Below are positions 1-10,535 of a DNA stretch of 10,535 bases, in pieces. The stretch covers positions 1 to 10,535 of the forward strand of contig DAOUYQ010000014.1 of NCBI GenBank assembly GCA_030666035.1, written 5' to 3'. A model generated the notes under the pieces. That model saw nothing but the letters and a program-made list of their open reading frames with translations. It did no database searches and was not told where the DNA came from. Both the position numbers and the translations under genes were made by a program. Source of the DNA: Microcaldota archaeon. Its GTDB lineage: Archaea > Micrarchaeota > Micrarchaeia > Anstonellales > Bilamarchaeaceae. How positions within the stretch are numbered: position 1 is the stretch's first letter; the number at the start of each line of letters is the position of its first letter.

Positions 1-3000
1 ATATTGCCATCATGTAGCTGCACTCCATTTTGTAATCTCCTATTGGAGGGTAGTATCCGCAGAACGAATCAAGGAGCCCAGAAGTCGGGTCGCATGTTAT
101 GTTTCTTGTACCATCAGTGGAAAAGACTGCAGGGGTTGCCATGTATCCCCCTTGTTCAAGGGCAACATAGGTTACTGCAGAGCCAGTTCCCGCGGTAGCT
201 ATGCAAAGGGGGCTGTTCATATCCAATGAAGCAATAACGTCCCTGTATGCCGAGGGGGTTTCCTTTACTTCTGCAATTTGAATTTCAATGTGCTCTTTGC
301 TTCCATTATTATAGAGGACTTCGCATTCAATTCCCTCAACATACATTGAGGGTGTGTGGCATATTCCAGCAGTTATACAGTTATCGGGCCACTTCACGTT
401 TTCTCCTGATTCATATCCATCGCAAAGGGGACCGTTCCCAACGTATTTTCCATTGCAAAGTGCAGGGGAGTCTGCCGCGGTGCATGGAACACACTGGCAC
501 TCATCAGTTACAAGCACTTCAGTATAGAATGTTGTAAAGTCATAGCCTGCAAAAGTCCTTGCAGAAGTAAACGTCCCGGCATAGAATTCTCCGCGGTAGC
601 CTGCAATTCCCTCATTAGAAATAAAACGCACACCGGTAGAATCGGTAGTTGAAGATTCCCAGTCACTATAAATGAGGCCAAGGTATCCGGCTTTCGCCAA
701 ATCTGCATTATGGGTTCCAAGATATGCCATGAGATTTCCTGCTGATTCTTCGCTCCAACAGGAGCCTGAGCGGTCAATTGCAAAATCTGTGATTATCAAG
801 GGCTTTCCATGCGCTTTTAGCGTCTCGTACCCAAGGTTTGTAATATTTGCAAGTATTAATGGGAAACGCTCTTCCTCACCAGTGATGCTGCAATACTCGT
901 TTCCATCCCCAAGTTCCATTCTTACTGATATTACATCCACATAAGGTGCAATCGGGCTGGAGGTTTCTCCTGCAAGGTAATTATAGTAAAATAGGAAATC
1001 AATTTCCTTTTTCCGGTCATCTAAATTGAAGCCTTCTACGCCCCCACCATAACCCACTGCAACAGAAACCATGCAATTTGGGCACATGAGGCGGGCTGCG
1101 GAACCGCGGCCGGTTATCCTCTTCTCTCCATCATAATCGCCGGGAGTAGAGCAACCGATATCTCTACAAACAGTTCCATACTCTTCAATAACCAGAATTG
1201 CCGCTCCTTCATTTATCATTGTGTTTCCAAGGAAACTTCCAATGGAAGAGTATATTTCTCCTCCAGCATAATCTTCAACACAGTTTCCATAGGTAGTTGA
1301 GCAATCATCCTTCTTTTCAATGCCCTCAAAGAGGTAGTCTCTGGTTTCATATAAGTGGGTGAGCAGAGTGGAGGTTGCATATGTTGCATCGCTTCCATCG
1401 GTCTGGAGTGCAACAGTATACTCATTGGGCTCCACATCCACAATACTTCGCACCCAAAGACCATCATCAATTGCAAAAATTACTGGCTGGATGTTTCTTT
1501 TCATAAAGCTCTCAAGCTTTTGGTTAAGGTAAAATGCATTGGGCATTGTGTATGGAAGGCCAGCCCGATATGCGCCTTCACCGCGTTCATTTACAGTATA
1601 CCCATTTGGATAAGTGCATTTCTGCTGAACCCACTCCTCCGCCCACTCATAGCTTCCAAATTGATATGTGTTGTATCCATTCATCCCATAGGGCTCCAGA
1701 ATATTGCCTGAACCAAATGCTACACCACTGGAAGGGTTTGCGCGCTCTTTTATGCCCCATTCTGTTTGGGGAGTGTGCACCACCATATCAGGGCAGTAAG
1801 TGTTTCCATACATTGTCCCTTCATCTTCTGAAACAGGGTCAAGTGTCCAGTCAGTTTCTATGGGAAGCGCAGTAATTTCCTGCTTTGCCATAGTAAGGTA
1901 TCCACAGGACTCACAAATCCCATACTGGTTAATTTCCAAACCGTCTCCGGCACTATTTAGCAGGCACTTTCCAAATGCCCACCTTACCTGGTCATTTACT
2001 ATTACCCTGCGCGGCTCGATAACCAGGTAAGATTCTGATTCTGCAGTGCACTCATCACCGCCGCCTAAATCAATGTGGCCCCCTGATGTTTCCCAGACAT
2101 AGCAGCGTGCTGCTTCGGCCTGGGCAGTAGGTATATGACCAGATTTTCCTGCGATATATTCACAAAACTTATATTCGTATGTTTCTCCATCGTCTTTATG
2201 AAAAAACGAGCTTTTTTCAAATTGTTCTGCAAACGGGCCCCCTGCTCCCATGTTCCATCCCCAGATGCCAATTTCTTTTTTTGCATCATCGTTGTAGCAA
2301 ACATGGATATATTTTTTATATCCCTCCATGCAGTTTTCCACAAAGCGGGTAGCGTGTTGATTTGGATTGGGATACCCATAAACTTCTGTATCCACCTCAC
2401 AGTCATCATCGTCATCATCATCTGCAGTACATGGAGTCTCACAGTTTGTAGTGCCATCACAGCAATAAACTGTTCTTAGGTCATCCACTGTCATTCCCCA
2501 GTAGTTTGCTTCTGGAATTGCGCTGCAGGGGTCTAAGGTCCACCTGGCCTTAACAAGCTCGTCATCCGCGCCCCAGGATATTACTGTGTAGTCTGGAATT
2601 TTAACTCCATAAGTGCTTGAGAGTTGGCCTCCCCCCAGCTGCAGAATAAAGAAGGGTGCCTCTGCAATTTCCTCTTGTCCTTCTCCCCAATCAACCAAAA
2701 GCCCGCAGGTTGGCAATACTTTTACCATTCCTACTGAAGGAAGGCTGGCAAGGGTCTGGGTGCCTCCGCCTTTTGCCTTTCCGTAAATATCCACTGGGGC
2801 AGAAAGAGCCACAGGAACCTCCACATCTACACTGGGGTCGTCCCAGGAAGGAACATCCACTCCGGCAGAGCCAATACAAAGCGTTTTTCCATTTTCAAAA
2901 TGGCAGTCACACAAAATATCTTCCCCGTCTACCCCAACACAGGCGCCTCTCTGGTAATCAAAATTATTGCAGTAGCCTGATAGGCAGTCAATTCCACTTG

Positions 3001-4312
3001 TGCACTCAAATTCGGCTCCGCTTTTAGTGCCTCCGTTTGCAAGGGTGTGCCCCCCTTCAAACTGTGCGTTGTAGATTGAGTGGTGGGCAAGAAGCCAGGG
3101 ATAAATTTCATGGGGGTTCTTTTCTTCAGTGAGGAATATTGTTCTGGCAAAAGTCTGGCTTTCCCAGTTCCAGTCAAAATAATAGCCCCAGGAACCCTCT
3201 CCTAAATAAGGAACATATTCTGTACCCTCTGCTCCGCTTCTGTAACCTTGGTATGCGAGATATTCAAGCATCGAGTACTCATCTGAATTTTTGCTAATTT
3301 CTGGGTCTCCAAAGGTTGCACCATACAATACTGTTCCTTCTGCATATCCATCCACGTCATTGGCCTGAAGGGGGCCCACTGCATTCCTAAAATACCTCGA
3401 AAACATTACACCATCAGAAGTATCCGGATATGCATCATATGAACCAAAATCGTATTTGTTTGGGCCATATACAAAAGGGTTTCCGATTTTTTCCTCCTCA
3501 TGCATGGACAGGTAAGGGTTGTATGCTTCAATTTCAGGCTCATAATCATATATTTCAAGGGCACAACGAGAGGCACAGTCAAAATAACTATATGACTTAA
3601 TTGAAGAGTCAGCAGTGCATCCATATGTTTCTCCAGTCTTCCCACAGAGTTGCCCGCCACTTAATTTTTGGTTGGGAATTGCATAGAGTACAAAGCGGTC
3701 CACTGAGCCTGCGGGATTAAGTTCGCAGGCAAGATCAGTTAGGGGGAAATAATATTGTGCCTGCTCAAAGTCCTCAAAGGATTCGCCTATTCCAAAGCGG
3801 AAAGTGTTGAGTGTGATATCATCTGAATTTTCCACTTTGCGCAAAAACAGGGTATCTAATTTCTGCACTGCACATTGGGCCTGCCAGAGCCCAATGGGCT
3901 CTTCTAAAACTCCAGTATTTTCCTCTTCCTCATCAGGGATTGCATGCGCTTCGTCCCCTGGAAGCATTCCGTATGAGGGGCGCGGGTCATAGAAGAAGTT
4001 TCCGCAGAATACCCCTGAGCAGTTGCTCTCGCAGGTGCTTGTTTTAATATTCGGGCAGACAGGAACTTCAATATCTTCTTCCCCACTAACAGCTGACTCA
4101 ATTATGCAGGTCCAGTTCCCTTCATCACAGCTTACTACCTCCCTCTCCTCCTCGTTTCCCTCTTCATTTATTCCTCGGCACACTGGGTCAATTGAGGAGT
4201 CTTCGGGAAACGCATCATCTGCAAAACAGCAAAACTGGTACTTTGGGGTTGTGCACCCCATTAGAACAAAAAGAAATGCGATTGCAAATATAATAATTAA
4301 TTTATTTCTCAT
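1..4312 (-). CDS. Gene F: giant secreted Cys-rich lipoprotein-like protein, C-terminal end outside window (1437+ aa)
   Basis: I translated this frame from ATG 4312 to the left edge and found no stop, so at least 1437 residues are coded. The N-terminus (MRNKLIIIFAIAFLFVLMGC) is a short signal ending in a lipobox-like Cys20, with no other clear membrane helix in the visible part, so the protein is probably exported and surface-anchored. About 60 Cys are spread along it. Visible landmarks are an acidic Cys-rich region (20-140), a compact Cys module (437-479), a seven-Asp run (631-637), a TIM-barrel-like region (about 937-1220) and another Cys cluster (from 1272, ECQCVPC). N-x-S/T sites occur in several places (for example NWT, NCS, NIT). 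The start is supported by GGGAGGT eight bases upstream. I recognise no family for the first 900 residues. Possible roles are an adhesin, a surface glycan-acting enzyme, or an extracellular part of the apparatus built from A to E. Confidence 0.88.
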   Translation of the reverse strand, partial: MRNKLIIIFAIAFLFVLMGCTTPKYQFCCFADDAFPEDSSIDPVCRGINEEGNEEEREVVSCDEGNWTCIIESAVSGEEDIEVPVCPNIKTSTCESNCSGVFCGNFFYDPRPSYGMLPGDEAHAIPDEEEENTGVLEEPIGLWQAQCAVQKLDTLFLRKVENSDDITLNTFRFGIGESFEDFEQAQYYFPLTDLACELNPAGSVDRFVLYAIPNQKLSGGQLCGKTGETYGCTADSSIKSYSYFDCASRCALEIYDYEPEIEAYNPYLSMHEEEKIGNPFVYGPNKYDFGSYDAYPDTSDGVMFSRYFRNAVGPLQANDVDGYAEGTVLYGATFGDPEISKNSDEYSMLEYLAYQGYRSGAEGTEYVPYLGEGSWGYYFDWNWESQTFARTIFLTEEKNPHEIYPWLLAHHSIYNAQFEGGHTLANGGTKSGAEFECTSGIDCLSGYCNNFDYQRGACVGVDGEDILCDCHFENGKTLCIGSAGVDVPSWDDPSVDVEVPVALSAPVDIYGKAKGGGTQTLASLPSVGMVKVLPTCGLLVDWGEGQEEIAEAPFFILQLGGGQLSSTYGVKIPDYTVISWGADDELVKARWTLDPCSAIPEANYWGMTVDDLRTVYCCDGTTNCETPCTADDDDDDDCEVDTEVYGYPNPNQHATRFVENCMEGYKKYIHVCYNDDAKKEIGIWGWNMGAGGPFAEQFEKSSFFHKDDGETYEYKFCEYIAGKSGHIPTAQAEAARCYVWETSGGHIDLGGGDECTAESESYLVIEPRRVIVNDQVRWAFGKCLLNSAGDGLEINQYGICESCGYLTMAKQEITALPIETDWTLDPVSEDEGTMYGNTYCPDMVVHTPQTEWGIKERANPSSGVAFGSGNILEPYGMNGYNTYQFGSYEWAEEWVQQKCTYPNGYTVNERGEGAYRAGLPYTMPNAFYLNQKLESFMKRNIQPVIFAIDDGLWVRSIVDVEPNEYTVALQTDGSDATYATSTLLTHLYETRDYLFEGIEKKDDCSTTYGNCVEDYAGGEIYSSIGSFLGNTMINEGAAILVIEEYGTVCRDIGCSTPGDYDGEKRITGRGSAARLMCPNCMVSVAVGYGGGVEGFNLDDRKKEIDFLFYYNYLAGETSSPIAPYVDVISVRMELGDGNEYCSITGEEERFPLILANITNLGYETLKAHGKPLIITDFAIDRSGSCWSEESAGNLMAYLGTHNADLAKAGYLGLIYSDWESSTTDSTGVRFISNEGIAGYRGEFYAGTFTSARTFAGYDFTTFYTEVLVTDECQCVPCTAADSPALCNGKYVGNGPLCDGYESGENVKWPDNCITAGICHTPSMYVEGIECEVLYNNGSKEHIEIQIAEVKETPSAYRDVIASLDMNSPLCIATAGTGSAVTYVALEQGGYMATPAVFSTDGTRNITCDPTSGLLDSFCGYYPPIGDYKMECSYMMAI
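653..1504 (-). other. TIM-barrel-like (glycoside-hydrolase-type) region in gene F
   Basis: Residues about 937-1220 of F show successive hydrophobic strands that end in polar or acidic residues, alternating with helix-like stretches: KRNIQPVIFAIDDG (938-951), AAILVIEEYG (1037-1046), CMVSVAVGYGGG (about 1075-1086), YVDVISVRMELGDG (to about 1136), GKPLIITDFAID (1169-1180) and AGYLGLIYSDW (1208-1218). The last two resemble the strand 7 'kPl.itE' and strand 8 'G...W' landmarks of clan GH-A glycoside hydrolases. Here the usual nucleophile Glu position would be Asp1176, and E1133 would be an acid/base candidate. It could be a degenerate, carbohydrate-binding barrel rather than an active enzyme. This is pattern reading, not a database match. 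Confidence 0.4.
2402..2422 (-). repeat. GAT/GAC trinucleotide run encoding seven Asp in gene F
   Basis: Seven consecutive GAT or GAC codons encode residues 631-637 of F, directly before a Cys. The run sits between Cys-rich stretches (YCCDGTTNC before it, DCEVDTEVYG after it). Mixed GAT and GAC codons suggest it is not a fresh slippage product. It may be a flexible acidic or cation-binding linker between two extracellular domains. Confidence 0.6.
2876..3004 (-). other. Compact Cys module in gene F (residues 437-479)
   Basis: Eight of its 43 residues are Cys, at 437, 443, 448, 458, 468, 470 and 479 plus the spacing C-x5-C-x4-C-x9-C-x9-C-x-C-x8-C as written (seven positions listed; the eighth partner may lie outside). 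The start, CTSGIDCLSGYC, resembles the C..G.DC.SGYC pattern common in small extracellular disulphide modules of secreted and lipoprotein repeats. It marks this part of F as extracytoplasmic. No specific ligand can be named. Confidence 0.45.
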
Positions 4313-5428
4313 CTATACCAACCTCCCCACCATTCCCATAAATGGCGCAGCATCTCCCCCTAATATTGTTGTTGCATAACGGAGGAAAGTAAGCGTTATT
4401 GCCAGTGCAACAAAGTTATTGAATAAAAGTGCGGTCTGTATGGATGCAACAAAGGTTGCAAGGTCATTTGAGAGTGCGACCTGGCTGGCAGTTCCTGAGC
4501 GGCTGCTGTATTGTGCAAGGGCAGCGGAACCAAAGGAGAAGCTTCCAAACATCGGAATGTTGCACATTCCGCTGGAAATGATATCAGGAAGTTCAGGCGC
4601 ATCCAGGCTTGCCATGAAAGTGCTGTCCATCATGAAAGTTACTGTAGGGTAGATAAAGAAAAACCCTATTGCCATTGCAATAAAGAAGGCGCCTATCCCC
4701 CTGGTAAAGTGGAAAGTCCTCAGGATTATTCCAAGGGGAAGGAAGACCGCAAGCATATTTTCTGCAACATACTTGAGCAAAAATAATTTTGCAGTAAGCG
4801 CAATCATGAGGTTTACGCAGATATATGCAATGCTGTGGTATGTCTCTACCTCCTTGTAAATGCTCTCAACCATCCAGGAGCCAATAAATACGGGTATTCC
4901 AAAAACTGTTATTTGCATGGAATAGATCATCTCAGGGCCCCGGTCGCTTTCTAGAACTTTGGTGTACTGCTTTCCGATTTTGTTTAGGAGCTCTCCGGTC
5001 CTGCACGCATCTGCTTCTACCGGGCTTGTCATATCTACTCCCCCGCAGGTAATTGAACCTAAAGAACCCAGGTAATCAAAGGCCTGCACAAGCATTCCTA
5101 CAAGCAAAATGACCATGAGGGCACTTGCCGCTGCCTGCATCATTTCAGTTACTGCGTATCGCTTAAGGCGTGCAGCATTGAGTGAGTATCCAATTATATA
5201 AATAATTGTGTGTGCAGTTACTGATATTACTACTGCTAAAATGCATATGGGGAGCCATCCCCATGTTTGTGTCCAGGTTGGGAGGAATTCCCCTTTTGCT
5301 TCATCACCCAGCTTGCTAGAATCGGTTACGCACCCTGAAAAGAAAACAAGGGCAAAAAGCAGCCCTGCAAACAGAGCCAGGGGAACTTCGCGCTTTTTTC
5401 TTTTTTCCTGCTTTTTGTTTTCTTCCAT
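4313..5428 (-). CDS. Gene E: VirB6/TrbL-like polytopic membrane protein with lipobox-like leader (371 aa)
   Basis: I place the start at ATG 5428. The frame could be extended three codons to a GTG at 5437, but that GTG is part of the AGGTG motif six bases before the ATG. The N-terminus is strongly basic (KKQEKRKKRE, residues 5-14), followed by a hydrophobic run and FFSGC (Cys33), a lipobox-like end. Helices are at about 60-82 and 99-117 with the shared AVTEMMQ element (92-98) between them. The first outside loop has Cys128 and Cys142. Hydrophobic stretches occur at about 167-185 and 199-237, then the signature LPLGIILRTFHFTRGIGA (230-247), a helix ending in YP (261), an outside loop of about 60 residues, the last helix (about 331-349) and the tail ILGGDAAPFMGMVGRLV. 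The TAG is followed immediately by the ATG of F. It is a paralogue of A to D, and VirB6-like function is inferred. Confidence 0.88.
   Translation of the reverse strand: MEENKKQEKRKKREVPLALFAGLLFALVFFSGCVTDSSKLGDEAKGEFLPTWTQTWGWLPICILAVVISVTAHTIIYIIGYSLNAARLKRYAVTEMMQAAASALMVILLVGMLVQAFDYLGSLGSITCGGVDMTSPVEADACRTGELLNKIGKQYTKVLESDRGPEMIYSMQITVFGIPVFIGSWMVESIYKEVETYHSIAYICVNLMIALTAKLFLLKYVAENMLAVFLPLGIILRTFHFTRGIGAFFIAMAIGFFFIYPTVTFMMDSTFMASLDAPELPDIISSGMCNIPMFGSFSFGSAALAQYSSRSGTASQVALSNDLATFVASIQTALLFNNFVALAITLTFLRYATTILGGDAAPFMGMVGRLV
4321..4328 (-). promoter_or_regulatory. Ribosome binding site of gene F
   Basis: GGGGAGGT lies eight bases before ATG 4312, inside the last codons of gene E. 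It is the strongest such motif in the window and precedes the directly abutting TAG-ATG junction. Confidence 0.7.
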
Positions 5429-5434
5429 GGGCAA

Positions 5435-5439
5435 CACCT
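5435..5439 (-). promoter_or_regulatory. Ribosome binding site deciding the ATG start of gene E
   Basis: AGGTG overlaps the TAG stop of gene D (5440-5438) and lies six bases before ATG 5428. The GTG inside it (5437) is in frame with E and could be mistaken for its start. Confidence 0.65.
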
Positions 5440-6487
5440 ATACTATCTGGACGAGCCTGCTTAGGTCCACTTCTGAACCTAAAAGCCTGGCAAAGAGGGC
5501 AGCTGAAGCTGAAACAGCGAGTATATTGAAAGTAAATAGGAATGTGGAGCTTACAAATGCTGAAGAGGTCATGTGTATCAGATCATCAAAAACGCTGAGT
5601 ATGGAAGGGCTTTCTGAAAACTGCCATTGCCCTCCGGACATAAACAGGTCTCCGTAGCCTAATTCATCAGAACTTCCTTCAACATCACTTACAAAATCGG
5701 CCATATTGTTCCAGGTGCCACCGTCCGTCCAGTCATACGGGTTCCAGAACATGGATTCCATAAACAATAGCATTGGAAGCAGGATAAATAATGAAAAACA
5801 GATAGCAATTAGCCCCCCTCCAAATGGCCGCATAAATGGAAGCGAGCGCAGGATTATTGCAAGGGGAAGGTATACTACTAAAAGCCCGGACTGTATAAAG
5901 CGCAGGAAGAATATCTGTGCAAGCACTCCAAGGTAAGCTGCAGTGGAGGTGTAAAGAAACAGGTTCGAGGACTGCATCAGGGCTGATGTTCCGCTTAGGG
6001 GGCGTACACTAACCCCATTTACCCCCATTAGGCAAAGAAGGAGTGCGGGAGTGCATGGGGTGCGCGTATATTTGGACATCTCATCAGTTGCGCCCATCAT
6101 TGCACGGGAGCCCCGCACCGTGCGATGTGAGAAATATGCAAGGTTCTCCAGGTATTTTTCTGAGGTCTCAAACACGTTGTCATCTTCTGAAATTGCTGGG
6201 TGTGCATACACACCTTCAACATCTTCACCTGAGAGTACGGTGAGCCAGCCTGCACTTATTGTGAATTCAGAACCAGGGTCGAGCCCAATTAGCCCCACCA
6301 AAAAGAGTGCAATAAAGACAAGGGCAACGCTTACTGCGGACTGGAATAGTTCTGTTTTTGCCCAGACATTAAGGCGCGGGTTCTGCAGAAGCTGGCCTAA
6401 AGCATAGGCTAGCCCGATTGCAATTGCAGCCACAAAGGTTGCAAAGATTGCAAGTGTATATGCATCTGCCCATTCCATATTTGTCAC
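5438..6487 (-). CDS. Gene D: VirB6/TrbL-like polytopic membrane protein (349 aa, GTG start)
   Basis: I chose the GTG at 6487 because it gives a GTGA overlap with the stop of C and has GAGGAT three bases upstream. The in-frame ATG nine bases later sits too far from that motif. Unlike B, C and E there is no signal peptide or lipobox: the protein goes almost directly into its first helix (about 11-34). The shared element WAKTELFQ (42-49) precedes helix two (about 51-68). The first outside loop includes a Cys pair (145, 152). A hydrophobic stretch (about 175-213) leads to the signature LPLAIILRSLPFMRPFGGG (207-225) and a helix ending in LP (238). A second outside loop rich in W, D and G (about 245-295) follows, then the last helix (about 311-333) and the tail LLGSEVDLSRLVQIV. 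It belongs to the same family as its neighbours and the function is inferred only from VirB6-like architecture. Confidence 0.9.
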   Translation of the reverse strand: MTNMEWADAYTLAIFATFVAAIAIGLAYALGQLLQNPRLNVWAKTELFQSAVSVALVFIALFLVGLIGLDPGSEFTISAGWLTVLSGEDVEGVYAHPAISEDDNVFETSEKYLENLAYFSHRTVRGSRAMMGATDEMSKYTRTPCTPALLLCLMGVNGVSVRPLSGTSALMQSSNLFLYTSTAAYLGVLAQIFFLRFIQSGLLVVYLPLAIILRSLPFMRPFGGGLIAICFSLFILLPMLLFMESMFWNPYDWTDGGTWNNMADFVSDVEGSSDELGYGDLFMSGGQWQFSESPSILSVFDDLIHMTSSAFVSSTFLFTFNILAVSASAALFARLLGSEVDLSRLVQIV

Positions 6488-7575
6488 GAAATCCTCGCAA
6501 GTGCGGAGATATCCACTTCTGAGCCGAAGATAGAAGCCAGCCCGCGCACTGCTGAGAGCGTTATCAGTATATTAAGCATTGTAGTAAATATTCCCTTAAT
6601 AAAGAACAAGTAAAGCAGGCTGTCAACCATTTCTCCCCCCTCTTCACCCACGAGCCTTTTTGCCTGCTTTCTTCCGGCTTTAGGGTCCATATCCAATGGG
6701 TTGCATTCTGAATTTATTTCTGAGAAAAGCAGGCTTGCACCGCCTGTTGCAATTGCAGCTGCAATGTCTCCGGGGCTATCTAAACCGGCACTGTATTCTG
6801 AAGCAAAGTCATCTTTGGGGTACTTGATATCCCCTGGGATGTAGTCTCCCGGGTCCCCCTTATCCACCTTGTTTGCCATACTTTCAGTAAGCATAATTGA
6901 GATTGGAAAAATAAAGTAGAATGCAAATGCTATTGCAATAAGGAGCCCCCCTGCTCCGCGGGTAAAGTGGAAGCAGCGCAAAAAGAGCCCAATTGGAAGA
7001 AGAACCGGAAAAAAGAAGCTTTGGGCCAGATTAAGGAGGATTATCTGGGAATTGTTTACAAGCATTGCTGAAACCATTGTATTTGTTGCAAAGGTAAGAG
7101 AAGAGAAGGGAACCTGGATTCCAATGCACCCAGGGTAGCTGAAACTTGCTCCCAGTATCGAGCAGGTTCCGGTAGTGGATGCCATGCTCCCAAGGGGGAT
7201 TGTGAGGTCGTTGGTGAATGTTTTTAATACGTCCCACTGGTAATTGGCATTCTCACTAAGAAGCGCCATCGCATAATCAATGTGGTTTAGGCTTCCTTCC
7301 CCAAATGCAGCGGATAATGCTTCGGAAAATATTGTAGTTGAGTATGCATTGAAGGAAACAAATACTGCAATAAATATCAATGTAACAAAAACCTGGTACA
7401 TCTCGGTTCTTGCAAGCATCCTCATTTCAGCTGAATCAAAGAAGTAGCCGAGCATGTATAAAATTACAAGAACCATGAATGCTGAGAGTGCTGCAAGGAT
7501 TGCCATTGCCTGCCAGTCGGCTGCTGCAAAGCAAAGTGAAATCATGGCAAGGACAAGCATGAATTTTTTCATCAT
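6484..7575 (-). CDS. Gene C: VirB6/TrbL-like polytopic membrane protein (363 aa)
   Basis: The ATG at 7575 overlaps the TGA of B by 4 bases. GAGGATGAT lies three bases before it and supports this start over the adjacent second ATG. The N-terminus (MMKKFMLVLAMISLCFAAADW) looks like a cleavable signal or first helix without a lipobox. Helices follow at about 24-45 and 60-76, with the basic turn and the family element LARTEMYQ (54-61) between them. An outside loop holds a Cys pair (138, 150). A long hydrophobic stretch at about 174-200 runs into the signature LPIGLFLRCFHFTRGAGG (193-210) and a helix ending in FP (224). The second outside loop (about 228-315) is Gly/Asp-rich and ends in a basic patch, KAGRKQAKR (299-307). 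The last helix (about 322-343) is followed by the tail IFGSEVDISALARIS. Five-helix N-out/C-in topology fits VirB6. The specific role is not known. Confidence 0.9.
   Translation of the reverse strand: MMKKFMLVLAMISLCFAAADWQAMAILAALSAFMVLVILYMLGYFFDSAEMRMLARTEMYQVFVTLIFIAVFVSFNAYSTTIFSEALSAAFGEGSLNHIDYAMALLSENANYQWDVLKTFTNDLTIPLGSMASTTGTCSILGASFSYPGCIGIQVPFSSLTFATNTMVSAMLVNNSQIILLNLAQSFFFPVLLPIGLFLRCFHFTRGAGGLLIAIAFAFYFIFPISIMLTESMANKVDKGDPGDYIPGDIKYPKDDFASEYSAGLDSPGDIAAAIATGGASLLFSEINSECNPLDMDPKAGRKQAKRLVGEEGGEMVDSLLYLFFIKGIFTTMLNILITLSAVRGLASIFGSEVDISALARIS
6491..6496 (-). promoter_or_regulatory. Ribosome binding site deciding the GTG start of gene D
   Basis: GAGGAT ends three bases before GTG 6487. 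The next in-frame ATG (6478) would be 12 bases from it, so the GTG is preferred. Confidence 0.6.
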
Positions 7576-9860
7576 CGTATCATCCTCATCATTCCCGGAA
7601 TGTCAACGTCTCCTCCCAGCATTGGGGAGAGCGTCCTTATGAAAATAAATGTGATTACAAGATTTAGGAGGGGAAGTATAACTGCTGGAACTACCAGCTT
7701 AGTGATTGTTTTCATTTCTAGGGGGCCTGCAAAGCCGTCTATCCCTGTTTCCATGTCCCCCGAATCAGACGAGACTGCAACCTTTTTGGCTTTGCCGCAA
7801 AGCGAATCACACCTCTGGTGGACTGGGGGGTAAGAGGCAAAGCCGGGGTCCATTAGGTAAGCGCAGGAAAGGCAATCAGTATCTGTGAAAACATCTGCGG
7901 GAATAATTGTGTAGCAGCTCTCCTCTGCAGCAGCAATTTGGGTTTCAAGGTCATAATTATCGGGGTCGGCTGCCAGCTTTGCTGTTTGCCAGAGGGTCCC
8001 TGGTGCAACGGGGCGGTCTCCGCAAACGCTCTTTGAGCAGCCCGTGCCAAGTTCCCCATCTGTGGTTACCCACCTGCAATTATTTGGGCAGCCTTCCTGC
8101 CAGGCAATTGATTCTGCATCATCCAATCCTTTAAAGCCAAGCACTGCGAGTGCCCTGCTTGCATCTTCATCAGGACCACAATAGAATGTTTTAAGGAAAA
8201 TGGGAAGCTTAGCTGCACATGCCCCGCTCAAAGTGTCCGGATACCCATCAGCATCCATCTGCTCATCCACATCTTCTACAGTATCCTCTTCCGAATATGA
8301 AAATCCATATCCACTCATGTCCACGCACCCCTCTTTTTTGAGTCCCACAAGGGGCCTGCACTTAAATGGGCAGGCATCCTTGTCTTCTTCTGAGAGGCCC
8401 GCAAGAATCGGGTCGTTTAGGTTTGCAAAGCGGATAATAAAGCACTCTTCTGGAACTGTTTCCCTGCAATAATATTCGGTTTCGCGGGAAGCGCACTCAG
8501 GATTTGTGTTTGAGTAAGGAAGGGTCCTGCAGGAAGGCGGGCACTTTTCATCATAGGCTCCACAGAAATAAATTGTTTTTCCTGTTTCAGGGGAAACTTC
8601 AGAATAAAACGGTTCGCATGTTTCTATCTCAAGTGGATCACTCATTGGAAGTGAAACAATGGTTATGCTGCACTCCTGGCCCAGAATAAAGTCATCAATT
8701 CTTTCCTTGTATTCATCATCGGTTTCGCAGGACTGGGAGGGGTCTATGCAAAAGCCATCTACAAATTCTTCATCTGGATTGCACACAGAGGCGTCGCTTG
8801 CAACTGAGGATGCACAGTCTCCATCCCGGCAGAGGAAACCGCCGCTGCAGCCTTCTGGAGGGAAAAGCTCTTTGATTTCACTGCGCTGGTATGTCTTGGT
8901 TCCTCCGGCTGTGGAGTATGCCTGGGGGGAACGCTGCATGCAGCTTGCTGTGCAGAACTGGTTATCAATGTCCCCTCCCGTTGTAGTTGTTCCATAGAGC
9001 GTTGTGTGCACCGTGTACATGGCAAGCGCATAAGTTGCCGGGAAAACAAGGAGGAACCCGATTCCAAATGCCATAAGGAGGCCTCCCATTTTTCGTGTTA
9101 TAAAGAAGCTGCGGAAGATTATTCCAAGCATTAATGCCATTGGGGCAAGTGTCCCGGAAACGTGGTTTAGTATAAATTGCTGGAACAAAAGGGCATCCCT
9201 CATTCCCATTAGAAACTGCATCTCCTGGGTTGCAGTGGTAACTTCAATCATGTAATCCGGGAAAAGCTTCATGCTCAGTGAGAGGTAACCCAAAAAGAGG
9301 TAATTGGTTCCGACCACAACGGACATCGTGGCCATTTTTCCCTTCTTTATTGCGGTTTCAAAAATGTCATCATAAACTGCAAGGCTCTTCTCCAGATATT
9401 CCTGGAGGTACTGGTTAGCTACTGTAATCGGGCAGAAGCGGTCAGTATCCACATCGCAGGTGAATTCGGGAATCCCCGCAATCAGGCCGTGGGTTACTAC
9501 CTCCACAAAAACAAGGATGGTCATTATGAATACAACAATTAGGACTGTTGAGAATGCTTCTGCAAGCTCCACATCTGCCCAGGCTTTTAGGCTTGGCATT
9601 TTGAGGGCACTGGAGAGTGGGTACATCAAGGCGATTAGCCCCACTGAAATCAGGACAAAAATTATTGAGAATGCACGCCACTCATTTACAATTACCCCTA
9701 TTGCTGTTTCAGATTCGCTGGGGACAAAGTCCCCAAAGGCTGTTTCTCCAGCCTCTTCAGTTACTATGTACTTGGATTCAGATTCCTGCACACAGCCGTA
9801 AGCAGATAATGAAAGTGCAACTAGGGCAAAACACAGCAAAAATATCAATTTTTGATTCAT
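7572..9860 (-). CDS. Gene B: VirB6/TrbL-like membrane protein with large Cys-rich ectodomain, lipobox-like leader (762 aa)
   Basis: It starts at ATG 9860 within an ATGA overlap with A, behind AAGGTGAT. The order of elements is: a signal peptide with a lipobox-like LSAYGC (Cys23); helices at about 63-82 and 103-122 joined by a basic turn containing the shared AWADVEL; an outside loop with a Cys pair (135, 143); hydrophobic stretches at about 177-198 and 222-248; the signature LGIIFRSFFITRKMGG (245-260); a helix ending in FP (to about 282); a Cys-rich insertion (about 300-690); a last helix (721-743); and the cytoplasmic tail LGGDVDIPG (748-756). It is twice as long as C, D and E, and the excess is all in the insertion, which the topology places outside the cell. 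The membrane core is the five-gene family and probably a VirB6/TrbL-type secretion scaffold. The ectodomain could contact partner cells or surface components. The coding call is secure and the family name is tentative. Confidence 0.9.
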   Translation of the reverse strand: MNQKLIFLLCFALVALSLSAYGCVQESESKYIVTEEAGETAFGDFVPSESETAIGVIVNEWRAFSIIFVLISVGLIALMYPLSSALKMPSLKAWADVELAEAFSTVLIVVFIMTILVFVEVVTHGLIAGIPEFTCDVDTDRFCPITVANQYLQEYLEKSLAVYDDIFETAIKKGKMATMSVVVGTNYLFLGYLSLSMKLFPDYMIEVTTATQEMQFLMGMRDALLFQQFILNHVSGTLAPMALMLGIIFRSFFITRKMGGLLMAFGIGFLLVFPATYALAMYTVHTTLYGTTTTGGDIDNQFCTASCMQRSPQAYSTAGGTKTYQRSEIKELFPPEGCSGGFLCRDGDCASSVASDASVCNPDEEFVDGFCIDPSQSCETDDEYKERIDDFILGQECSITIVSLPMSDPLEIETCEPFYSEVSPETGKTIYFCGAYDEKCPPSCRTLPYSNTNPECASRETEYYCRETVPEECFIIRFANLNDPILAGLSEEDKDACPFKCRPLVGLKKEGCVDMSGYGFSYSEEDTVEDVDEQMDADGYPDTLSGACAAKLPIFLKTFYCGPDEDASRALAVLGFKGLDDAESIAWQEGCPNNCRWVTTDGELGTGCSKSVCGDRPVAPGTLWQTAKLAADPDNYDLETQIAAAEESCYTIIPADVFTDTDCLSCAYLMDPGFASYPPVHQRCDSLCGKAKKVAVSSDSGDMETGIDGFAGPLEMKTITKLVVPAVILPLLNLVITFIFIRTLSPMLGGDVDIPGMMRMIR
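7579..7587 (-). promoter_or_regulatory. Ribosome binding site of gene C
   Basis: GAGGATGAT ends three bases before ATG 7575, inside the last codons of gene B. It supports the first of two consecutive ATG codons and the ATGA overlap. Confidence 0.6.
7791..8963 (-). other. Cys-rich extracytoplasmic insertion of gene B with degenerate CPxxCR repeats
   Basis: This covers residues about 300-690 of gene B and contains 30 cysteines, an even number compatible with full disulphide pairing. CPPSCR (440-445), CPFKCR (497-502) and CPNNCR (591-596) are each followed 10-13 residues later by another Cys. Two of these units are preceded by an aromatic-C-G motif (YFCG 431-434, FYCG 559-562). Related looser pairs are CTASC (303-307) and CDSLC (684-688). 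Residues 338-378 form a separate compact group spaced like an EGF or knottin-type module. I read this as several small disulphide-stapled units on the cell exterior. The CPxxC pairs look like zinc ribbons, but the outside location argues for disulphides. Confidence 0.65.
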
Positions 9861-10535
9861 GGAATCACCTTTGCCACTTTAACCATTGCACTTGCACCTG
9901 TGATGAATATCACCATTGCAAGGCTGGGGAGGAATACAGTTTGGAAGAGGAATGCTGAAATCCTTCCCCATCCAGTCAGGCTGGTGCATCCTCCTAGCGC
10001 TTTCTCGGTATCCTCATCACAGTAATTAATCTGAACGTCTGCTGCTGATGCGTTTACTGCATATGCAAATGGGAAAATAACCAAAAGCGCAAACGTGAGT
10101 GCAAGAACAATGTTTCCCGCTTCGCGCACAAAGGGAAGGGCGCGGAGCATTAGCCCAAATGGAAGGAAAATGGGGAATATGTACTGCTCAATTACCAAAA
10201 GAATAAAATACTGGACTCCGGCGCTCACATACCCGACAGTTACCATATCCGCAAGGATTTCCTTCTGCCTTGCATATGCATTGTAAAATGATAACGTGTA
10301 TGAGGTTTCCCCTCCAATAAATGGCGCCATGTACCCATATACTCTTGCTGCAGAAAACTTGTCTTTTACTGATTCCTTTATGAGCTGCTCCAGAATCATC
10401 TGCCCTTCAATCTGGAGGCTATACATGTAGTTTTGAGCATCCAGAATCGGGCCGCTGGAGCCTTCCAGGAAATTAGTGAAGAATAAGCAGGAGCCCTCAA
10501 AAATTGAAATAATAAAGAGTGCAAGGGCCACCGTA
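9857..10535 (-). CDS. Gene A: VirB6/TrbL-like polytopic membrane protein (N-terminus cut off by window edge)
   Basis: The frame is open to the right edge, so the true start lies outside. A GTG at 10531 is in frame but is an unlikely start, because the related proteins C to E have about 55-100 residues before the equivalent helix. About 226 residues are visible. They show a hydrophobic segment at the edge, an extracytoplasmic stretch of roughly 90 residues, a long hydrophobic stretch, the family signature (LPFGLMLRALPFVREAG, nt about 10115-10165), a second helix ending in FP, a short loop with two Cys (near NYCDEDTE and GGCTS), and a final helix. The C-terminus ends in SAMVKVAKVIP and lacks the LGGD/LGSE tail found in B to E, so this is the divergent member. 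Its TGA overlaps the ATG of B by 4 bases. Membrane location is clear. The role as a VirB6-like channel or scaffold subunit is inferred from architecture and from the four paralogues downstream. Confidence 0.85.
   Translation of the reverse strand, partial: TVALALFIISIFEGSCLFFTNFLEGSSGPILDAQNYMYSLQIEGQMILEQLIKESVKDKFSAARVYGYMAPFIGGETSYTLSFYNAYARQKEILADMVTVGYVSAGVQYFILLVIEQYIFPIFLPFGLMLRALPFVREAGNIVLALTFALLVIFPFAYAVNASAADVQINYCDEDTEKALGGCTSLTGWGRISAFLFQTVFLPSLAMVIFITGASAMVKVAKVIP
9864..9871 (-). promoter_or_regulatory. Ribosome binding site of gene B
   Basis: AAGGTGAT lies three bases before ATG 9860 and inside the end of gene A. It matches the complement of the conserved 16S rRNA 3' end (ATCACCT) and fixes the start of B within the ATGA overlap. 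Confidence 0.75.

Follow-up and report, generated by a model that had tools for sequence, protein, structure and literature searches.

Micrarchaeota are reduced, probably host-dependent archaea, and, to our knowledge, the exchange of material between DPANN archaea and their partner cells is largely unknown. The stretch of DNA analysed here (the window, 10,535 nt) is contig C112 of a Micrarchaeota genome of 0.95 Mb in 170 contigs that is 82% complete, which bears out the archaeal origin that a preliminary description had guessed from the letters. Its genes A to E encode a run of membrane proteins, and F, the gene that follows, a giant protein (Table 1). The preliminary description took A–E to be five tandem paralogs of the VirB6/TrbL kind, diverged copies kept in one operon that might form a hetero-oligomeric channel or scaffold.

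Table 1. Genes of the window, with positions in nt and P1–P6 denoting the positions in the array.
Gene	Array position	Coordinates	Strand	Length	Signature	Features
A	P2, array gene 2	9857-10534	minus	225 codons	10115-10165	5′ end truncated by contig end
B	P3	7572-9860	minus	762 aa	R-x5-R-x2-G at 9084-9113	Family core and a large Cys-rich insert preceding the last membrane helix
C	P4	6484-7575	minus	363 aa	6949-6999	
D	P5	5438-6487	minus	349 aa	5819-5869	
E	P6	4313-5437	minus	374 aa	4691-4741	AF2 model, mean pLDDT 79, pTM 0.69
F		2-4312	minus	at least 1437 aa		Giant secreted lipoprotein-like protein; 60 Cys; lipobox-like MGC near N terminus; truncated by contig end

The array of the window and its protein family

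A–E and F are consecutive on the minus strand, and in the ORF map every gene abuts the next or overlaps it by 4 nt. The hairpin signature by which A–E had been grouped was placed correctly to within a few bases. Its literal pattern is present in A, C, D, and E but not in B, which has Met at the second position; the core, R-x5-R-x2-G, is found in all five proteins, and each of the five carries a Pro in the helix after the signature. In 20,000 residue shuffles, the core appeared in a mean of 0.098 of the 5 proteins and never in all five. Used as a single query, E matches B (7.8e-13) and C (3.8e-12) on its own contig, and a profile built from A–E recovers more family members elsewhere in the window genome. 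Thus, tandem paralogy stands, whereas the count of five does not. That is, gene maps of relatives place A–E as genes 2–6 of a conserved six-gene array, P1–P6, with F after P6, and the window contig ends inside this array.

In 21 family members, the conserved columns are E, R..TR..G, and P. Hydropathy plots of the family have mostly 4–8 segments, and the AF2 model of E, which is good in its helical part, has long helices. The family therefore has a trait of VirB6-type proteins, i.e., it consists of polytopic membrane proteins with a conserved charged loop. Lengths vary strongly between positions and lineages, P3 ranging from about 630 to 1600 aa and P5 reaching about 1100 aa.

A P1 is carried by another contig of the window genome, C40, together with the 78 N-terminal residues of a P2; judged by eye on orthologs, this P2 piece stops a few residues short of the start of A. 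An overlap between the ends of C40 and the window contig was sought and none was found, so the adjacency of the two is a suggestion, and C40 could instead be part of the genome's other array of the same kind, a second array I. Pieces of this second array I are found on contigs C24 (L031) and C110 (L003) of the window genome (G000), and its P6 is 57% identical to E. It may be a true second copy or a contaminant; two strong P6 matches on one contig, G078:C61, suggest that the family does undergo real duplications. Near array I there is also a gene (L053:385-3072) for a membrane protein that has eight helixes and includes two AAA domains (Pfam AAA, 2.3e-80), and a gene that by eye resembles it lies near P1 on C40 (L047).

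Membership in VirB6/TrbL, as proposed in the preliminary description, did not hold up at the sequence level. PF04610 has no match in A–E (E ≤ 1) or in the 82% complete window genome (E ≤ 10), and a profile–profile comparison with seven plasmid VirB6 proteins gave no significant match. Of the 25 profiles compared (24 for the array positions and one for S, the single-copy relative treated below), P3 scores best against plasmid VirB6, at 5.1% (score 29.9), the next at 2.8%, and the others at 1.7% or less; the control, 25 reversed profiles, reaches up to 1.7% (score 24.0). A Foldseek search with the model of E returned no match at E ≤ 0.001. Among the best 50 of its 124 matches, the only type IV secretion chain is 8rtd_L (rank 16, E 2.8, TM 0.28), a chain of the R388 stalk-arches-IMC whose subunit is unnamed in the output.

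Searches of A–F against Pfam, NCBIfam, and PHROGs gave no meaningful family match, and A–E matched no transporter profile in them. The weak family matches, namely NCBIfam FosX (0.058) and AmaP (0.51) and PHROGs families of unknown function (0.0076–0.53), were set aside as chance. The family profile had 0 matches at E ≤ 10 among PDB sequences.

An ordered set of six genes and its single-copy relative

The size of the array was established by a six-frame count over 88 loci, some contigs being present twice, in which a cluster is called internal when at least 1.2 kb of DNA is found on either side. Before removal of duplicates, the internal clusters are 37 of exactly six genes, 14 single genes, and one of seven. 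The seventh member of the last, at L114, is a 137-aa VirB2-like pilin ORF and is hence discounted. Distinct internal arrays have six genes in 31 of 31 cases (30 directly, and L114 minus its pilin-like ORF), and no internal cluster of 2–5 genes occurs among the counted loci, which were hand-picked from the listed matches rather than drawn at random, so that rarer array sizes could be missed.

Together with those at contig edges (12, next to the 31 internal ones), there are 43 distinct arrays with exactly six genes, L114 being corrected and exact duplicates removed. They comprise 27 of type P, the type of the window; 8 of type Q, a second array of the window's order; 7 of type R, from families f20 and f21; and 1 of type N, from G089. 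In the locus counts, P and Q are the labels of the best-matching HMM, the seeds of which come from a few of the same arrays. Clusters of 2, 4, 5, or 7 among the 88 loci all lie at a contig or locus edge, with the exception of L114. Seven-member clusters were considered as a clear break of the rule of six and rejected, as the extra member of L114 is the pilin-like ORF and that of L104, we think, is pilin-like too. Two more clusters, L085 and L096, touch contig edges; the former includes an additional weak ORF, and in the latter the last gene is split.

Positions in the array correspond from one type to another. For the profile matrices, and for the tree below, position was taken from gene order, and arrays were still sorted into P and Q by the HMM labels. 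Pairing each position with its own number is the best of 720 permutations in five of the six matrices (P-Q, Q-R, P-N, Q-N, and R-N). In the P-R matrix, this assignment is only rank 5 of 720, and 4 of 6 rows are diagonal, the same number as in Q-R. All positions also match S by profile, with a probability of 98.6–99.9%.

The tree contains 115 sequences, from 9 of the 27 P arrays, 8 of 8 Q arrays, the one N array, and 7 of 14 S genes; R was left out. Positions 1, 2, 3, 5, and 6 form clades across P, Q, and N, with SH support of 0.983, 0.968, 0.971, 0.964, and 0.718, respectively. Position 4 forms no clade, position 5 being nested within it, and neither does S. The position-by-position matching between array types indicates that the six kinds predate the split of the families, i.e., that the set is ancestral, and that the whole six-gene block was duplicated in the lineage leading to the window's order, giving arrays I and II.

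The family extends over most of the phylum. Searching named genomes with aligned relatives of E gave 47 loci, all labelled Candidatus Micrarchaeota, Candidatus ainarchaeum, or archaeon. With E as the query, all but one of the 59 genomes of the nearest set have relatives, and these 58 genomes show 2 to 14 matches apiece. A survey with the P6 profile, limited to about six scored candidates per genome, found matches (E ≤ 0.001) in 264 of the phylum's 301 genomes and in 89 of the 96 better genomes. The ATPase treated below (E ≤ 1e-40) is present in 251 of the 301 and likewise in 89 of the 96, not necessarily the identical genomes. The genomes G276–G279 (f24) have two weak P6-profile matches and one ATPase each; in G277, the mapped locus combines S with genes for pilin, X, and ATPase, S being the sole family match found there. 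The f24 genomes perhaps represent the ancestral one-gene form. No description of a six-gene array was found in the literature on type IV secretion in Micrarchaeota and DPANN, of which subscription papers and preprints were mostly outside the coverage; the available portions of PMC12102498 and PMC10266531 describe none.

Pilins, ATPases, and giant proteins that accompany the family

In seven of the eight complete N and R arrays, two X genes and the array-type ATPase gene lie directly downstream, and all seven have a VirB2-like pilin gene within 6 kb upstream. The eighth (G190, L133) has no pilin, X, or ATPase nearby; an ATPase match is found elsewhere in that genome. S loci have similar neighbours. 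Ten of 14 have all three kinds of gene (pilin, X, and ATPase) no more than 6 kb away, the pilin of L122 being on the other strand. Of the remaining four, L062 and L126 have a pilin alone, and L063 and L125 no convincing partner. Thus, VirB2-like pilins and a VirB4/HerA-type ATPase do adjoin relatives of the array, where the preliminary description wanted flanking genes inspected for pilins and secretion ATPases, and its case against a secretion system, that no secretion ATPase would lie near the locus in related genomes, does not arise.

The assignments of the neighbours are as follows. Of ten pilins scanned together, nine match T4SS_pilin or TrbC of Pfam at E ≤ 0.1, the two best values being 1.1e-5 and 1.8e-5, with all matches falling below the Pfam curated cut-offs; the L114 pilin, scanned separately, matches at 1e-4. 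The ATPase of the window genome matches DUF87/HerA (2.9e-18), AAA_10 (1.4e-12), and P-loop_TraG (2.7e-9) in Pfam, and the PDB matches of the ATPase are HerA proteins and VirB4-like 4ag5 (1.5e-6). X (L114:14078-15728 and relatives) consists of two membrane helixes and a soluble part; there are two in tandem in the one-operon arrays, whereas S loci have one, as do those ATPase loci of the window's order that were mapped. X proteins could be the counterpart of VirB3 or the membrane domain missing from the short ATPase, two roles for which Pfam scans of X gave no support.

This gene company resembles that of Ced of the Sulfolobales and Ted of the Thermoproteales, archaeal DNA import systems made of a VirB2-like pilin, a protein in the VirB6 position, and a VirB4-like ATPase, as set out in the available text of PMC9905601. 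In the S loci and the N and R arrays, the same three components of a minimal archaeal machine are found in one locus. As the polytopic protein whose gene accompanies those of a VirB2-like pilin and of a VirB4-like ATPase, the arrangement of Ced and Ted, the family holds the VirB6 position in the machine; it is at most a candidate homologue of VirB6 itself. A kinship between VirB2 and VirB6 is reported in the same text (PMC9905601), and the match of the Q2 profile to the L114 pilin-like ORF, at 20.6 bits, may be a faint echo of it. Compared by gene composition, Ced and Ted differ in having one CedA or TedA, whereas Micrarchaeota have six ordered paralogs, X, and giant extracellular-looking proteins.

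Placement alongside VirB2 and VirB4, a further VirB6-type trait, is seen in the relatives (S loci and N and R arrays) but not beside the array type of the window. In the DNA covered, the 6 kb around the P- and Q-type arrays examined contain no ATPase, X, or pilin gene, so the partnership there is argued from the other families and from an ATPase being present elsewhere in the genome. An array-type ATPase, 58–68% identical to the one-operon form, is found in 15 of 15 genomes of the window's order that were searched, and an S-type ATPase, at 42–51%, in 13 of the 15 (exceptions, G021 and G044). In the window genome, the array-type ATPase is on C4 (62% identical to the one-operon form) and the S-type on C117.

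Nine array-type ATPase loci were mapped. All nine have a 245-aa protein, C238 (L134:619-1353), with weak coiled-coil and helix-turn-helix matches. X is directly upstream of the ATPase in eight, the ninth being at a contig end, and a small two-helix protein (L134:1353-1841) is present in seven. Eight have a protein (L143:4604-7150 and look-alikes) that is about 850 aa long, matches no Pfam family, and is predicted to have two helixes; a start-like piece of it is found at the contig end of the ninth. C238, the small two-helix protein, and the ~850-aa protein are probably further parts of the machine.

An F-like ORF follows the P6 position in 40 of the 47 named loci; most of the other seven stop at or near P6 or hold other array types. 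The 648 C-terminal residues of F are modelled as alternating strands and helixes (pLDDT 68, pTM 0.64), a barrel that, judged from the model, is one resembling clan GH-A glycosidases. Of its 28 Foldseek matches at E ≤ 0.001, 27 are glycoside hydrolases (mannanases, xylanases, etc.) and the other is a Kemp eliminase; TM-scores are low (0.16–0.24 by query and 0.21–0.45 by target), which is to be expected when only part of a model is matched. F was considered as an active glycosidase and the idea rejected: the fold fits, but in 24 sequences acidic residues, Glu included, are not conserved at the strand ends taken for catalytic. For this reason, F is named here a glycosidase-fold barrel only, with glycan binding as likely as cleavage. 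Pfam scans of F and three relatives gave a single family match, to a Kre9/KNH-like Ig domain (1.9e-5), in the relative L098. Array II, too, is flanked by large, partly secreted-looking proteins that are divergently read (L059:15939-20000, L056:15548-19999, and L124:14797-17874).

A proposed translocation machine and its alternatives

A hetero-oligomer is the best reading of the array. We consider it rather probable that Micrarchaeota have a minimal type IV secretion machine of the Ced/Ted kind, the VirB6-position subunit of which has become six specialised paralogs in one hetero-oligomeric channel or platform. A single ancestral VirB6-position membrane protein, surviving as S, would have been amplified to six copies, and these would have specialised and then stayed together in a fixed order, their genes overlapping or lying close to one another. 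The six non-interchangeable subunits would assemble into one channel or pilus platform in the inner membrane, with the array-type ATPase below it as a hexameric motor. The large extracellular inserts of P3 (and of P4 or P5 in some families) and the lipoprotein F would face the partner cell, and the cargo may be DNA or protein. In the window's order, there are two such blocks, arrays I and II, and the ATPase operon is elsewhere.

Precedents for such specialisation are the MCM2-7 and proteasomal Rpt1-6 rings, which arose from homo-hexamers. More tentatively, and short of an even chance in our estimate, the paralogs may form an obligate hetero-hexameric translocation pore, with each present once in a fixed place, matched to the six-fold VirB4/HerA motor and used at cell–cell contact. 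The VirB6 stalk of R388 is likewise the membrane base of a pilus and channel in a machine with a hexameric VirB4, as given in the available parts of PMC9259494 and PMC12857230. VirB4-type ATPases are hexamers (PMC12857230), whereas the TrwI/VirB6 stalk is a homopentamer of one gene (PMC9259494), a mismatch with the six genes of Micrarchaeota that comes on top of a profile comparison that is not significant. A six-fold ring would therefore be new, and it is the weakest step of the proposal.

Two further systems share parts of this arrangement. The rvh system of Rickettsiales has tandem VirB6 genes, five copies in most Rickettsia (PMC2653234, in its available part), and, compared by gene arrangement, tandem diverged copies with large extra domains are what the Micrarchaeota array has too. 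As the same source has it, however, the number of VirB6 genes in rvh varies (one is missing in R. massiliae, and the order Rickettsiales has at least four orthologs), and further VirB components are listed. Nanohaloarchaea, also DPANN, have giant surface proteins tied to a VirB4-type ATPase. According to the available portion of PMC10266531, these proteins carry VirB4/TraG domains and are proposed to act on host cells; there, in contrast, giant protein and ATPase domain form one fused polypeptide.

The six paralogs need not act together. They could be six parallel homo-oligomers, each with its own extracellular domain, that use a shared ATPase in turn, the copies being kept for different receptors or cargo. 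The strong length differences of P3 and P5 between positions and lineages agree with such a division of labour, and S, alone in its locus, indicates that one kind of subunit can suffice. Independently useful copies, however, should be lost and gained singly, whereas the number of six and the order are fixed, with one array-type ATPase per one-operon locus. We regard separate homo-oligomers as unlikely.

Nor need there be a secretion channel. If the family were a scaffold in the membrane, specific to Micrarchaeota, on which an adhesive pilus or other surface structure is built, with the HerA-type ATPase only assembling pilin, then the failure to find VirB6 membership by sequence would be no surprise, and the giant extracellular-looking partners (F and, in several loci, the next gene) as well as a glycosidase-fold barrel without conserved Glu at its presumed catalytic strand ends would suit an adhesive structure. 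This account is quite improbable, given that the ATPase is of the VirB4/HerA/TraG kind and that pilin, polytopic protein, and VirB4-like ATPase together are the composition published for Ced and Ted (PMC9905601, available text). An unrelated transporter family that has been duplicated locally, the kind of outcome that the preliminary description itself named as counting against it, would likewise leave A–E without a match to a named family. It is very hard to credit, however, as the gene neighbourhood is conserved and the single-copy sister lies in a locus with pilin and ATPase, with no transporter profile matched and no fold match at E ≤ 0.001.

We return to the reading preferred here, a hetero-oligomeric channel or platform of six specialised paralogs. 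A transfer machine present across most of the phylum is a concrete candidate for the exchange between DPANN archaea and their partners. It would also let one test whether the VirB6-position rings of archaea are six-fold, as against five-fold in R388. If the proposal is true, many of these cells have both a six-subunit channel and its single-gene sister, a testbed for how and why a homo-oligomer turns into an obligate hetero-oligomer.
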